DNA of 64,000 nucleotides from contig NZ_LIUF01000001.1 of the NCBI RefSeq assembly GCF_001280425.1, forward strand, positions 186,001 through 250,000. Direction: 5' to 3'. Position 1 is the stretch's first letter. Each line of letters starts with the position of its first letter. The translations under genes were made by a program, and so were the position numbers. Positions 32,846 through 39,388 of the stretch are shown here, one piece after another. Source of the stretch: Haloarcula rubripromontorii (GTDB lineage: Archaea; Halobacteriota; Halobacteria; Halobacteriales; Haloarculaceae). Below the pieces are notes generated by a model. The model made no database searches and was not told the DNA's origin. It saw nothing but the letters and a program-made list of their open reading frames with translations.

Positions 32846-33454
32846 TCAATCGCCCGCTGTCCCCAGCGGTGTAAGCAGGAGGTAGCCGCTGGATGGGGCC
32901 CCAGCCGTTCGCAGCCGAAACTGCCTCGGCTCGTCGGGTGCCGTCGAGAGAGCGACGACATCGAGGTCAGCTGTGCTGACCGTCTCGGCGTCTACTTCAT
33001 CGATACCAGCCACGAGCAGTGCTTCCGAAAGGGCTGTCCCGTTGAGCCGGTCGGACGGCACGTCGAACGCGGTCCCGAACGCGTCGTTTGCCGCTCGCAC
33101 GACCGGGCCGTGGCCGTCATCGGCGAAGTACAACACCGGGTCCGGATGCCCGTCGAAGAGGTCGACCGGCTGTGGCTCCGGTGTTTGCTCGGCATCTGCT
33201 GACACTGTCATCGTCTCGTCGGTCGTCTCGCCGGGCGAGTCAGTCACCAGAAGGTAGGAGACGCCGCCCAGTCCGCCGCCAAGCGCCAGACCGAGGCCGA
33301 CAGTGACCTGCTCCGAGAGTCCGTGTGAGAACACTGACTGCACCACCAGCGCGACGGTGGCGAGCACGACCGCACCTGCCCCTATCCAACCGACCACGGC
33401 CGCGAGGCTGCCAAGACGGTGTCGACCGCCTGTGTCCGCCGACGACTTACTCAT
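32846..33454 (-). CDS. Membrane-anchored PAS-like protein
   Basis: A 202-residue protein with two N-terminal transmembrane helices (about 15-37 and 48-68) followed by an acidic linker and a PAS-like segment: LFDGHPDPVLYFADDGHGPV, RAANDAFGTAFDVPSDRLNG, then strands ending YLLLTPLG. The segment resembles sensor domains of haloarchaeal histidine kinases, but there is no kinase or output domain. It is divergent from the HalX response regulator, 94 bases away, which hints at a functional link. PAS assignment is moderate. Confidence 0.65.
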   Translation of the reverse strand: MSKSSADTGGRHRLGSLAAVVGWIGAGAVVLATVALVVQSVFSHGLSEQVTVGLGLALGGGLGGVSYLLVTDSPGETTDETMTVSADAEQTPEPQPVDLFDGHPDPVLYFADDGHGPVVRAANDAFGTAFDVPSDRLNGTALSEALLVAGIDEVDAETVSTADLDVVALSTAPDEPRQFRLRTAGAPSSGYLLLTPLGTAGD

Positions 33455-33548
33455 CAGTGTACACTCACTGGGCCATCGGTTAACGCTTTTCGAGAGGCGG
33501 TTGCCGATAAGACATATACAGTTGCCAGCTCTAGGGGTGTTCAGTACT

Positions 33549-34121
33549 GTGTCCAGAATTACAGGCGGCCCACCGCGGGTGCTCATCGTCGACGACGAAC
33601 ACGATGTCGCCGACACGCAGGCTCTGAAACTCGGCGAGCGCTACGAGGCGACTGTCGTGTACAGTGGCCAAGCGGCGCTCGACACTGCCGGTCCGAAGTT
33701 CGACGCTGTGTTGCTCGACCGACGAATGCCCGACGTACACGGTGACGATGTGCTGTCACAGTTGCGCGAGCGGGGCTACGACGGCGTCATCATTATGCTG
33801 ACCGCGGTCGATGCCGACCTGAACATTCTGGAGATGCCCTTCGACGACTACCTTCAGAAGCCGGTCGACCAGTCGACGCTCCTGTCGGCGCTCGGGCAAC
33901 ATCTCGACAGGCCCCAGGAAGACGACAGACTCGACGAGTACTTCCGGATTTCTTCGAAGCTCTCCGTGCTGGAACGCGAAAAGTCGGCGTCACAACTGGA
34001 ATCAAGCACCGAGTACACGGAGCTGAAAGAGCGTGCCAGAGAACTTGAGTGGGTGCTGCAAGCCGAGAACGATGATTTCGAGGAGTTGAAAGCGACGTAT
34101 CAGTCTATCAGCCGAAGTTAG
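33549..34121 (+). CDS. HalX-domain response regulator
   Basis: A 190-residue protein. The receiver domain spans about 8-115: acidic pair in LIVDDEHDV (Asp15 and Asp16), phospho-acceptor Asp57 in FDAVLLDRRMPDVHG, Thr85 in IIMLTA and Lys104 in YLQKPVD. The HalX domain follows as a helical, coiled-coil-like region (about 120-188, LDEYFRISSKLSVLEREKSA and ELEWVLQAENDDFEELKATY). HalX is a haloarchaeal output or dimerisation domain without known DNA binding. A GTG at 33549 is the likely start; a GTG at 33537 is the alternative. Confidence 0.88.
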   Translation: MSRITGGPPRVLIVDDEHDVADTQALKLGERYEATVVYSGQAALDTAGPKFDAVLLDRRMPDVHGDDVLSQLRERGYDGVIIMLTAVDADLNILEMPFDDYLQKPVDQSTLLSALGQHLDRPQEDDRLDEYFRISSKLSVLEREKSASQLESSTEYTELKERARELEWVLQAENDDFEELKATYQSISRS

Positions 34122-34738
34122 GTGTCGAGAAGCAGTGTTTCTTCGATGTACTCGTCGATAGTGTCCCGGATATCGGCGACAGGGTTGTCGTTGCGTGTCG
34201 CGCTCTGAAGAATCACGCCGTCGAGTATCGTGATCATGAACCGCGAGACCGTCTCGGGATTGACATCGGCGAAGACACCCTGTTCGATGCCGTCCTCGAT
34301 TATGTGTACGAGTTGTCGGGTGAACAGTTCGTCCGTCTCGGTGAACTTTTCACGGAACTCCGGATTCTGGACTGCCTGAGCACGCATCTCGATGTACGAC
34401 CCGAGTACGGCGTTCTTTTCGGGCGTCTCGACGCAGTCGGGAAAGTCATCGAGAACGAGACTGACAAACGTCTGGATGTCCTGTTCGGGGTCGCCGGTCG
34501 ATTCGACTTGAAAGATGCGGTTAAACTCTGTGAGGATGAACTCCTGAAACGACAGCAGGAGGTCCTCCTTGCCATCGAAGTGGTGATAGAACGTCGATTT
34601 ACTGAGGTCGGCCTCGTCCGCGATTCGCTGTATCGAAAGTCCGGCGTACCCGTATTCCCGGAGGGCACGGAACGTGGCTCGCATTATCGCCTCGTGCGAG
34701 TCCGCCGGCTCCCCGGCAAACGGAATTCCATCACTCAT
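34118..34738 (-). CDS. TetR/AcrR family transcriptional regulator
   Basis: A 206-residue repressor. The N-terminal HTH spans about 15-60: HEAIMRATFRALREYGYAGL, then SIQRIADEADLSKSTFYHHF with the family's STFYHHF recognition helix and GKEDLLLSF. The C-terminal ligand domain ends EYIEETLLLDT. A palindrome lies between its TATA element and start codon and a second one sits 60 bases further on, so autorepression and control of the divergent secreted-protein/RND operon are likely (inference). Its stop interlocks with the HalX gene stop. Confidence 0.92.
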   Translation of the reverse strand: MSDGIPFAGEPADSHEAIMRATFRALREYGYAGLSIQRIADEADLSKSTFYHHFDGKEDLLLSFQEFILTEFNRIFQVESTGDPEQDIQTFVSLVLDDFPDCVETPEKNAVLGSYIEMRAQAVQNPEFREKFTETDELFTRQLVHIIEDGIEQGVFADVNPETVSRFMITILDGVILQSATRNDNPVADIRDTIDEYIEETLLLDT

Positions 34739-34742
34739 CCCG

Positions 34743-34760
34743 ACCGAATATTCGTTCGGG
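34743..34760. promoter_or_regulatory. Palindromic operator 1 at the TetR start
   Basis: ACCGAATATTCGTTCGGG contains the perfect 10-base palindrome CGAATATTCG (34745-34754) immediately upstream of the tetR ATG. A TATA-like ATATTTAC (minus strand, about 34763-34770) sits just beyond it. A repressor here would block transcription initiation of tetR. Confidence 0.6.
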
Positions 34761-34804
34761 CTGTAAATATCTTCCCACTGTTACTGAACCACAACGTTGA
34801 TAGG

Positions 34805-34822
34805 CGACCGAACGTTCGTTCG
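34805..34822. promoter_or_regulatory. Palindromic operator 2
   Basis: CGACCGAACGTTCGTTCG holds the perfect palindrome CGAACGTTCG (34809-34818). It shares GACCGAA-xx-TTCGTTCG with operator 1, 64 bases away, so both are probably bound by the same TetR dimer. Confidence 0.6.
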
Positions 34823-34942
34823 ATGTACACGGTTCGGGCGGGAGTCTGCACAGACGTATGTGGGTACATATCCCGACTTCCCAGACACGACGTCCGCTCC
34901 GGACAGAAACAACGACAAGAAATGTCCGAAGTGTCCCTACGT

Positions 34943-36868
34943 ATGAAACCACGAACATTACTGACGCTGGCCGTTGTCGCATTGCTCATGGCGTCCGGAA
35001 CGGCAATCGGTGCCGTAACCGGGAGCCCAGACTTCGACGCAACGTTCGTCGATAACACTGTTACGCCCGGTGAAGAAACAACACTCGACGTTGTGCTCGT
35101 CAACAGCGGGACGGTCGACTCCGGTCCGACGACGCAGGCCGTTCGGAGCAGCGAGGTAACGACCGCTCGCGGAACCACGGTCAAAGTCAACAGCGGAGAC
35201 GCTCCAATCACGGTGACAACGAGCAAGCAAGCCGTCGGGTCCGTCCCGGAAGGCAAGACGAGTCCGATTTCCTTCGAAGTGAGCGTCGATGACGACGCAA
35301 GTCCCGGCGACTACACCGTCCCTGTCATCGTCGAATACGAGTACACGAGCTATATCTCCGAAAACGACGGGGCACGAGACGAAGAGACAGCGACGAAACG
35401 GATCGAACTCGAACTCGAAATCGACGACGACGCGGCTTTCGACGTGGTGGACGTCGACTCCGGCGCGCGCGTCGACTCGGTCGGGACGGTCGCAATCACC
35501 GTCGAGAACACTGGTGACGAACCGGCCCGAGAAGCCTCGGTAACGCTGGAATCGACGAATCCTGAACTCACAGTCGGTAGCGACACCAGCAGCTCCCGGT
35601 TCATCGACACCTGGGAGGCTGGTGAACAGCGGACGCTCCGGTACCGCGTCGGTGCGAGCGGTGACGCCAGAGCCGAACCGTACCAGTTCGACCTTCAGGT
35701 CGACTTCGACGACACGGACGGAGTGCGAAAGAGTACGTCCGCCTCCTCGCTCGGTATTACACCTGCACGCGAGCAGACGTTCAGCGTCCGGGGCGTCGAC
35801 AGCGACGTTGCCGTCGGCGATTCGGGGACGTACAACGTCACGCTCCACAACGACGGGCCAGTGGCTGTCAGAGATGCCACGGTTTCCCTGCGCTCACAGA
35901 GCAGCGAAATCGCATTCGGCGAGTCTGACTCCGCCGAGCAGTACATCGGGACGTGGAAACCCGGAGAAACTCGCACTGTTAGCGTCGACGCGTCCGCGAG
36001 TGAGGACGCGTCCGTCAGAGGGTATGCGATCTCAGCCACGGTCGGCTACAAGGATCCGGAAGGTGACAGCGGCGCTGACGACGATATCGCACTCGGAATC
36101 CGGCCAGAGCCTGAACAGTCCTTCGAGCTAGGGGACGTTGAATCGACACTCCAGGCGGGCGACGACGGGACCATCGAAGCGTCACTCACCAATACTGGCG
36201 ACCGAACGGTTCGGAACGTCGTCCTGAACTGGGCCAGCGACAACGACAACATCTCGCCGAAGGAGACCCAGTACGCGGTCGGCGATCTCGGACCAGGTGA
36301 GTCAGCGACCGTCTCGTTCGACGCCGAAGTGTCGGATAACGCAAACGCCGGCCCGCGGCAGTTCGACTTCGTCGCCAACTACCGTAACAGCGAGGGCGAC
36401 AGCCGCGAGAGCGACACACTCGAAATCCGGCAGAGCGTCGGCGGCAGCGCCGACGAGTTCATCGTCGAGACGACGAACGCGTCGGTCAACGTCGGCGGGT
36501 CGAACACGCTCGAAGTGACGATCACCAACGACGCGGGCGAACGGCTAACCGACATCGAAGCGAAGCTGTTCACTGAAGACCCCATCTCAGTGTCGGATGA
36601 CCAAGCGTACGTCGAGAGCCTCGACCAGGGCGAGTCAGCGACCATCGAGTTCGGTATCAGCGCGAGCGGTGCCGCGATGACGAAGAACTATCCCGTCTCG
36701 CTTGACTTCCAGTACGAGGAGCCAGACGGAGATACGCCGGTGTCCGACACGTACCGACTTCCCGTCTCTGTGACCAACTCCGGCGGTGGCAGTTCGCCAC
36801 TGACCACGATTATCGGCGTCGCGCTCGTGGCCGCCCTGGCCATCGGCGGCTACTTCAGATTCCGCTAA
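34943..36868 (+). CDS. Secreted Ig-like repeat protein with C-terminal anchor (COG1361 type)
   Basis: A 641-residue exported protein. A Sec signal peptide MKPRTLLTLAVVALLMASGT is followed by about five beta-sandwich repeats of roughly 110 residues, each with 'V.V....LTNTGD..V..V', 'W.PGE..T..' and an acidic edge. Late in the chain comes a Gly/Ser linker, then one transmembrane helix (TTIIGVALVAALAIGGYF) and a basic tail. This is the COG1361/S-layer-like architecture, with the body outside the cell. It is followed after 3 bases by an RND exporter. An ATG at 34922 (MSEVSLRMKPR) is an alternative start. Confidence 0.82.
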   Translation: MKPRTLLTLAVVALLMASGTAIGAVTGSPDFDATFVDNTVTPGEETTLDVVLVNSGTVDSGPTTQAVRSSEVTTARGTTVKVNSGDAPITVTTSKQAVGSVPEGKTSPISFEVSVDDDASPGDYTVPVIVEYEYTSYISENDGARDEETATKRIELELEIDDDAAFDVVDVDSGARVDSVGTVAITVENTGDEPAREASVTLESTNPELTVGSDTSSSRFIDTWEAGEQRTLRYRVGASGDARAEPYQFDLQVDFDDTDGVRKSTSASSLGITPAREQTFSVRGVDSDVAVGDSGTYNVTLHNDGPVAVRDATVSLRSQSSEIAFGESDSAEQYIGTWKPGETRTVSVDASASEDASVRGYAISATVGYKDPEGDSGADDDIALGIRPEPEQSFELGDVESTLQAGDDGTIEASLTNTGDRTVRNVVLNWASDNDNISPKETQYAVGDLGPGESATVSFDAEVSDNANAGPRQFDFVANYRNSEGDSRESDTLEIRQSVGGSADEFIVETTNASVNVGGSNTLEVTITNDAGERLTDIEAKLFTEDPISVSDDQAYVESLDQGESATIEFGISASGAAMTKNYPVSLDFQYEEPDGDTPVSDTYRLPVSVTNSGGGSSPLTTIIGVALVAALAIGGYFRFR

Positions 36869-36871
36869 CGC

Positions 36872-39388
36872 ATGGATTACCAGCGCTACATCGACTGGGC
36901 GGACGACCGCATCGTCCACGATTCACGGAAGGTGGTTCTCCTCTTCCTGGTCGTGACGGTGGTCTTCAGCGCCGGGCTCGGGAGCGTCTCGACTAACTCC
37001 GGGACGTCGCAGTTTACGACCGGACTTCCGGCCGAAGAGGCACTGCAGGAAGTCAACGACAAGTTCTCGCCGGCCTTCTCTCCGGATACGGGGAGTACGC
37101 AGTTGATCCAGCGGGAGAACAACGTGCTCGCGAAGCCGGCGCTGCTACGGATGCTCAGATCACAGCATCGGTTGGAAGAACACGGAGCGCTCCGTGTCAC
37201 GTCGACCTCAAGCGCCGCCACCATCGTCGCCCAGCAGCTAGATCCAGCGGCGAAGACGACCGAACAGCAGATCTATGCTGTCGAAGCCGCAACACCGGGA
37301 GAAATCGACGCTGCCGTCGGGCGCGCGGCCGAGCGGAACTCGCGGTTCAAGTCGCTGCTGAGCAAGGATTTCAACCGCAAGTCCGCCTCAGCGTCGGCGA
37401 CGATCGGCGTCGTCACGCACGAGGTTCCGGCCGGAATCTCGTCCGGGTCAGGTCAGGGCGGATCGAGTCCGCTGACGAGCATCCAGAAACAGGCCGGGTT
37501 CACTGTCTCCAGCGCTGACAACGGTGGTATCACCCTGTTCGGCAGTGGCATCATCGCTGACGAGTTCTCGAACGTCGTCAGTGACTCGCTCATCCTGACC
37601 GTGCCCGCAGCGGTGCTGTTCATCCTGTTTTTCCTGACGATTGCCTACCGCGACCTCGCAGATATGGCGCTTGGCCTTATCGCGCTGTTTATGGCCGTCG
37701 TCTGGACGTTCGGCTTCATGGGGCTTGCCGGTATCCCCTTCTCGCAGATGCTCATCGCCGTGCCGCCGCTGTTGTTGGCGGTCGGTATCGACTTCGGAAT
37801 TCACGCCGTCAACCGGTATCGGGAGGAGCGCGAAACCGGAGCGTCTATCCAGAAGTCGATGCGGATCACGACTGACCAGTTGCTCGTCGCCTTCTTCATC
37901 GTGACGGGGACGACAGTCATCGGGTTCGCCGCGAATCTCACCAGCGCACTGCCGCCGATTCAGGACTTCGGCTACGTGGCCTCTGTCGGTATCACGTTTA
38001 CCTTCCTCATCTTCGGGGTGTTCCTACCCGCCGCGAAGGTAGAATTGGACCGGCTCCGTCAGCGCTTCCCCATTCCGACGTTCAGTGAGACGCCGCTGGG
38101 CGCGGAAGACTCAGCACTCAGCGGCGTGTTGCGCGGCGGTGTCGTCATCGCGAACCGCGCCCCGATCATCTTCCTCGTGCTTATCCTCATATCCACGGTC
38201 GGTGCCAGCTACTACGCCACCGGCGTCTCGACTTCGTTCAGTCAGGAGGACTTCCTACCGCCCGAGGAGAACCCAGACTTCGTCGAAGCCCTGCCGGAAC
38301 CGTTCGCTCCGAGCGAATACACCGTAACGGAGGTGACGAACTTCCTCGATGACCGGTTCGATACGACCCAGTCCAGTCAGGCGACGGTGTACGTAGAGGG
38401 GCCAATGCGGAACGATGCGGCGCTTGAGCAGATGTATCGGGCGGGTGACAACCCGCCGGACTCGTTCGTCCGAGAGGACGGGCGCGCTGAGTCGACGTCT
38501 ATCGTCACGGTCATTCAGGACCGAGCAGCAGAGGACCCCGAGTTCCGTCGGATGGTCGAGCGCAACGACCAGAACGACAACGGTGTCCCGGACGATAACC
38601 TCGAGGAGATATACGAGTATCTGCTTGACTCGTCGGACCGTAGTACGGCGCTAGAGTACATCACCGAAGATTACCGGAGCGCGCGCGTTGTCTACACGGT
38701 CGAATCGGACGCGACTGACGCCGAGGTGACCGCCGATACGCGAACCGTTGCCGAGGACTTCCGATACGAGGCGACGGCAACCGGCTCGATAATCGTGTTC
38801 CAGGCCGTCTCAGACCTTATTCTGGAGTCAGCCATCCAGTCGCTGGCGATTGCACTGGTCGGGTCAGCGCTGTTCCTCATCCTCATGTACAATATGCTGG
38901 AGGGGCGGCCGTCACTCGGCCTCGTGAACATCATCCCCGTCGTCGTCACGGTAGCGTGGCTCGGCGGCACGATGCGGGTGCTTAGCATCCCGTTCAACGC
39001 GCTCACAGCGACAATGCTGGCAATAACTATCGGGCTAGGGGTCGACTACTCGGTCCACGTCACCCACCGGTTCGCCGACGAGTTCGAGGAAAACGACCTC
39101 GAAACGGCGCTGGACCGGACTGTTCGCGGGACCGGCGGGGCGCTGTTCGGGAGTATGCTCACCACGACGTTCGGAATCGGTGTGCTCGGGCTGGCTGTGT
39201 TCCCTGCAATCGGCCAGTTCGGCATCCTGACGGCGTTGTCGATCGGGTACGCGTTCCTTGCCTCCCTACTGGTGATCCCCTCCGCGCTCGTCGTCTGGAA
39301 CCGGGTGTTCAACGCTGATTGGTCGGTCCGTGGCAAACTCGGGTTCGGGCGGTCGCGGCCACCCGCACCCGTCGAAGGCGACGACTGA
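36872..39388 (+). CDS. RND superfamily (MMPL-type) exporter
   Basis: An 838-residue transporter with the twofold RND layout: an N-terminal helix (about 21-38), a large extracellular loop, a six-helix bundle (about 240-400), a second single helix (about 430-450), a second loop and a six-helix bundle (about 660-820). GIDFGIHAVNRYREE and GLGVDYSVHVTHRFADEFEE are the two proton-relay-type helix-4 motifs. Substrate is unknown; RND/MMPL proteins move lipids, drugs or signals. It shares an operon with the secreted repeat protein, a pairing that suggests an export apparatus under TetR control. Confidence 0.9.
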   Translation: MDYQRYIDWADDRIVHDSRKVVLLFLVVTVVFSAGLGSVSTNSGTSQFTTGLPAEEALQEVNDKFSPAFSPDTGSTQLIQRENNVLAKPALLRMLRSQHRLEEHGALRVTSTSSAATIVAQQLDPAAKTTEQQIYAVEAATPGEIDAAVGRAAERNSRFKSLLSKDFNRKSASASATIGVVTHEVPAGISSGSGQGGSSPLTSIQKQAGFTVSSADNGGITLFGSGIIADEFSNVVSDSLILTVPAAVLFILFFLTIAYRDLADMALGLIALFMAVVWTFGFMGLAGIPFSQMLIAVPPLLLAVGIDFGIHAVNRYREERETGASIQKSMRITTDQLLVAFFIVTGTTVIGFAANLTSALPPIQDFGYVASVGITFTFLIFGVFLPAAKVELDRLRQRFPIPTFSETPLGAEDSALSGVLRGGVVIANRAPIIFLVLILISTVGASYYATGVSTSFSQEDFLPPEENPDFVEALPEPFAPSEYTVTEVTNFLDDRFDTTQSSQATVYVEGPMRNDAALEQMYRAGDNPPDSFVREDGRAESTSIVTVIQDRAAEDPEFRRMVERNDQNDNGVPDDNLEEIYEYLLDSSDRSTALEYITEDYRSARVVYTVESDATDAEVTADTRTVAEDFRYEATATGSIIVFQAVSDLILESAIQSLAIALVGSALFLILMYNMLEGRPSLGLVNIIPVVVTVAWLGGTMRVLSIPFNALTATMLAITIGLGVDYSVHVTHRFADEFEENDLETALDRTVRGTGGALFGSMLTTTFGIGVLGLAVFPAIGQFGILTALSIGYAFLASLLVIPSALVVWNRVFNADWSVRGKLGFGRSRPPAPVEGDD

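Follow-up and report, generated by a model that had tools for sequence, protein, structure and literature searches.

Two near-identical imperfect palindromes of 18–20 bp, their centres 64 bp apart, lie between a tetR gene and a divergently transcribed exporter operon of Haloarcula rubripromontorii, and we consider it highly likely that they are the operators of the adjacent TetR, whose dimers would repress both promoters until a hydrophobic ligand releases them. From comparison of the sequences, the regulator very probably sits at these palindromes and switches off tetR together with the exporter operon; what we infer is that the protein binds, that it represses and does not activate, where the operon starts and which kind of ligand acts. 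Bound to site 1, between the tetR TATA box and the predicted leaderless start, a TetR dimer would turn off its own gene; bound to site 2, at the same place in the divergent promoter, it would turn off the operon for a secreted protein and an MMPL exporter. A hydrophobic ligand, perhaps an exporter substrate or a lipid or acyl compound, would free the repressor and turn both promoters on. The features of the locus are as follows (positions are those of the window, the whole 64,000-nucleotide stretch that was analysed).

34118–34738, minus strand: tetR, encoding a TetR-family regulator of 206 aa with TetR_N (PF00440) and BetI-type C-terminal (PF13977) domains
Residues 47–53 of TetR: recognition helix (KSTFYHH) in an AlphaFold model
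34740–34759, unstranded: site 1, candidate operator in the tetR promoter, CCGACCGAATATTCGTTCGG; one mispaired position; centre 34749.5 (TA)
34764–34770, minus strand: TATA-like ATATTTA of tetR, −32 to −26 relative to the ATG
34793–34802, plus strand: AACGTTGATA, putative BRE/TATA box for the exporter operon; 9 of its 10 alignment columns do not vary among 25 loci
34805–34822, unstranded: site 2, candidate operator in the exporter-operon promoter, CGACCGAACGTTCGTTCG; one mispaired position; centre 34813.5 (CG)
34825–34942, plus strand: predicted 5′ leader of the exporter operon, about 118 nt from a putative start; not conserved
34943–36868, plus strand: 641-aa secreted protein, its Ig-like domains of CARDB/NEW3 type assigned from domain matches
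36872–39388, plus strand: MMPL/RND-superfamily exporter (HAE3-like) of 838 aa

The 206-aa protein has the helix-turn-helix of the TetR family (PF00440, 54 bits against a cut-off of 24) and an all-helical ligand and dimerization domain of the BetI type (PF13977, 47.3 bits against 27). Its best 50 Foldseek matches are TetR-type regulators, and its AlphaFold model (mean pLDDT 79) places the helix-turn-helix at residues 36–42 and 47–53. It scores below the equivalog cut-offs of both FadR (NF053878, 47.5 of 200 bits) and BetI (TIGR03384, 44.6 of 201.3 bits). The 3′ end of tetR overlaps a convergent HalX response-regulator ORF (33303–34121) by four bases, 34118–34121. We take the secreted protein to be of the kind usually annotated COG1361; a start for it further upstream, at 34823, was rejected because the ATG is missing in relatives (L008, L010). 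Some exporter matches had been flagged for an in-frame TGA; at the six loci followed up, a stop was seen in one alignment only, near the start and ahead of the next ATG.

The palindromic cores, CGAATATTCG at 34745–34754 and CGAACGTTCG at 34809–34818, are offset by 64 bases and embedded in a shared frame, GACCGAANNTTCGTTCG, as an earlier note on this DNA had described; the frame is indeed present twice, beginning at 34742 (one base before the 34743 given there) and at 34806. Exact frame matches in the window are two, sites 1 and 2, and loose matches with up to three mismatches are uninformative, since there are 7 of them compared with 4.72 in shuffles. Across the whole 3.97-Mb genome, the exact 17-base frame occurs twice, both times here, with 0 control matches. 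The fuller motif CGAMCGAANNTTCGKTCG is likewise exact at these two sites only, and one mismatch adds a single match elsewhere, inside an ABC-permease ORF. The genome scan that the note had proposed for defining a regulon thus retrieved both sites and, at the exact level, no others, so the regulon looks local.

Both sites occupy an equivalent place in what appear to be two divergent core promoters, each between a TATA-like box and a predicted start. At tetR, whose ATG is at 34738–34736 on the minus strand, a single base (34739) separates the start codon from the 20-mer of site 1, and the site 1 core spans −16 to −7. Together with ATATTTA at −32 to −26, this one-base gap bears out the claim that site 1 lies at the tetR start and inside its core promoter. 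The tetR transcript would be leaderless, starting at 34738. In Haloferax volcanii, leaderless transcripts are reported to make up 72% of those for proteins, and the promoter boxes of haloarchaea are given as TTWT, CGAAA and a −10 WW (PMC4983044). On the other side, which the earlier note missed along with the predicted 118-nt leader, the exporter-operon promoter is most likely at AACGTTGATA. In other genera, a TTGATA-like box, read by eye, precedes the centre of site 2 by 17–18 bp, and the position of this box predicts a transcription start near 34825, which would put the site 2 centre at about −11.5. From these positions, a bound dimer should block initiation at either promoter. A divergent exporter operon with palindromes in both promoters is the layout of a TetR autorepressor/efflux switch.

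Conservation among relatives picks out the same elements. Across 25 orthologous loci of the same genus, mean identity is 0.973 for site 1 (14 of 18 columns of the 18-mer invariant), 0.971 for site 2 (15 of 18) and 0.98 for AACGTTGATA; identity is 0.80 for the stretch between the two sites, and the leader after site 2 (34823–34942) has a mean identity of 0.635 with 1 of 120 columns invariant. The sites persist in these loci despite TetR identity falling to about 60%, and they are retained in a second genus with TetR identity of 52–54% and in another family (G333 and G406, two genomes that came to notice through the operator pattern itself). Frame orientation flips among relatives, some carrying the mirror form and some a perfect palindrome, so the asymmetric frame proposed earlier is not the motif.

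A family-wide TetR search, from which the 25 aligned loci come, returned some match in 137 of 146 genomes. A separate search of genome_contigs gave 27 TetR loci, with both sites visible before tetR in 11 named Haloarcula/Halomicroarcula genomes; five more loci, from Halonotius, Halohasta and one haloarchaeal MAG, are without sites in front of tetR, and the remaining 11 of the 27 are distant bacterial TetR genes, inspection for sites having covered the haloarchaeal loci. A scan of the class for GAATATTC, a gap of 46–76 bases and GAACGTTC found matches in 39 of 391 genomes and 0 in controls; matches within the family mostly represent this locus, and, judged by sequence, several of those outside the family appear to be due to chance. 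Among 20 exporter-operon regions chosen by hand from the list of exporter matches, TGA-type sites (up to one mismatch) were found in all four with a divergent TetR adjoining the operon, and no site of any type within one mismatch was found in the 15 lacking a TetR match or the one with only a weak match (L184). At 2 mismatches, matches do appear in five of these 16 regions (L171, L176, L177, L179 and L184).

The letters of the operator follow the recognition helix of the TetR beside it. Palindromes of the form CGAnCGAAnnTTCGnTCG go with helices LSKS[T/S], and those of the form TGAnTGAAnnTTCAnTCA with KSKSL. We compared 90 TetR loci, comprising 30 from the family-wide search and sets of 20 and 40 regions hand-picked from best-ranked search matches. 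A C- or T-form site within one mismatch lies upstream of tetR in 59 of the 90, compared with 5 of 9,000 dinucleotide shuffles. At that threshold, the 47 LSKS[TS] loci divide into 36 C-type (CGA), 0 T-type and 11 with none; the 34 KSKSL loci into 22 T-type (TGA), 1 C-type and 11 with none; the nine loci with other helices have no site. Exporter operons of genus g10 (exporter 66–70% identical) pair KSKSL regulators with T-type sites. Residues 45 (L/I or K) and 49 (T/S or L) of TetR tell the two classes apart; they fall within the recognition helix or immediately ahead of it. Most of the agreement between helix and letters traces back to a single deep split in the TetR tree, which has a few intermediates (the tree uses 78 of the 90 loci, the other 12 being near-identical and left out), so the 59 site-bearing loci are far from independent and the agreement is suggestive rather than a count of independent events. 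Mixed-letter sites occur at the intermediates L135, L137 and L162, the first two being KSKSL loci. Three of the 11 site-less LSKS loci (L079, L147 and L148) have a weaker C-type site elsewhere in the locus, so the 11 are not all counter-examples.

TetR relatives in Halonotius/Halohasta (L014–L018) and in Haloarcula-genus genomes (L177, L179) have no site at their own start and carry a C-type site (1–2 mismatches) elsewhere in the locus. Two of these loci, L017 and L177 (in G015), have the C-type site before a membrane-protein gene, followed in L017 by the TetR gene, and TetR may act there.

Elsewhere in the H. rubripromontorii genome there is another divergent TetR/secreted-protein pair, at G000:C1 near 537.9–540.5 kb (L185). 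Its TetR, near 539.8 kb, has a helix of the K type, KSQSLIYHHY, and its secreted protein is 52% identical to that of the window. The T-type operator TGACTAAACGTTCAATCA, the sole T-type site within one mismatch in the genome, lies directly upstream of the second secreted-protein gene and has a CG centre, like site 2. At the start of the second tetR itself, no clear T-type site was seen (the best has 3 mismatches), so the two-operator layout is not fully duplicated at this pair.

The centres of paired sites are asymmetric. In 38 exporter-linked loci with at least two sites, their order is TA-CG in 33, TA-CG-CG in four and CG-CG in one (L088), so that in 37 of 38 the centre is TA on the tetR side and CG on the operon side. 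Four more loci have TA at tetR followed by CG or, in two of them, CA, with one third site TA. Unlinked tetR genes follow no TA/CG rule; they have CG, TA, TG or CA at the centre, which makes it less likely that TA acts there as the −10 WW element in all tetR promoters. Common descent alone is a possible source of the rule. The distance between the two centres ranges from 63 to 99 bp across relatives with no constant helical phase, which argues against looping between the sites, and that mechanism was rejected. A further operator 25–29 bp downstream of the operon-side one is seen in L070, L088, L126, L128, L159 and L165–L168. Helix, letters and centres could together describe two ‘spellings’ of one switch, insulated by residues 45/49 and the C/T letters, with an opening order set by the centres; we advance this joint reading tentatively, as somewhat doubtful. 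It would have LSKS TetR with CGA operators and KSKSL TetR with TGA operators standing before related secreted-protein/MMPL operons, even side by side in one genome, and the TA (tetR) and, usually, CG (operon) centres of either spelling would be a built-in difference in affinity or promoter strength.

Several other accounts of the palindromes can be set against this evidence. TetR could bind both sites and activate the exporter operon, or repress only itself while site 2 tunes expression. Some TetR-family proteins are activators, and one abstract terms FasR an activator. We nevertheless regard this account as unlikely: an activator would be expected to bind upstream of the TATA box, whereas both sites lie between a TATA-like box and a predicted start, where a bound protein is expected to block polymerase. 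The palindromes might also be bound by another regulator, for instance a different TetR or some general promoter factor, with the neighbouring TetR acting elsewhere. At least eight TetR matches in the genome make cross-binding possible, but the motif is restricted to this intergenic region in its own genome, is not found within one mismatch at exporter operons without TetR, and varies in its letters along with the helix of the TetR next to it, and we judge this very improbable.

Chance palindromes, or the remains of repeats in CG-rich promoter DNA, would fit the finding that loose matches are no commoner than in shuffles. They are contradicted by conservation across genera, and exact matches confined to this locus, the footprint conservation and the excess of real loci with sites over shuffles (59/90 compared with 5/9,000) leave this explanation a negligible chance. 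The reading of the palindromes as operators of the adjacent TetR, which the earlier note had put forward as a prediction, draws support from footprinting by conservation, absence of the motif at TetR-less operons and letters that track the helix.

Divergent TetR-family autorepressors with an efflux operon are a known kind of system, represented by TetR/tetA, AcrR/acrAB and QacR. Like them, the present locus has a regulator and an exporter that diverge, a palindromic candidate operator in each core promoter and the TetR fold; it differs in its archaeal TATA/BRE promoters, its predicted leaderless tetR, and its combination of an MMPL exporter with a secreted Ig-like-domain protein. The NCBIfam FadR model is the best match of the window TetR, yet the score is far below the cut-off. 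The T-type sites of haloarchaea resemble the palindromic box of Bacillus FadR; unlike that system, the window TetR has C-type sites and an acyl-CoA gene is absent next door. The closest solved structure, and top Foldseek match, is the TetR regulator 3crj of Haloarcula marismortui (E 4.9e-32, about 36% identity, TM about 0.8), a paralogue whose PDB title gives neither operator nor function. FadR of Sulfolobus acidocaldarius, also of the TetR family, is reported to have few genomic sites with semi-palindromic operators, one at its own gene, to regulate fatty-acid genes and to bind with two stoichiometries depending on the operator (PMC6449355). It shares with the window TetR being archaeal, having few sites and having a site at its own gene; it differs in regulating fatty-acid genes.

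In the literature searched, which lies mostly outside subscription journals, we found no haloarchaeal TetR with a known operator, and nothing directly on this system or on helix/operator co-variation in haloarchaeal TetR proteins. In layout the locus is ordinary, a well-supported example of the known divergent switch, and its predicted operator is absent from the papers searched. To our knowledge, operators have been established for few TetR regulators of haloarchaea. The locus provides a candidate operator together with its place in an archaeal core promoter. Two operator versions with different letters in one genome offer a ready-made test of specificity, and, if orthogonal, the two versions could be put to use as insulated switches in genetic work on haloarchaea.
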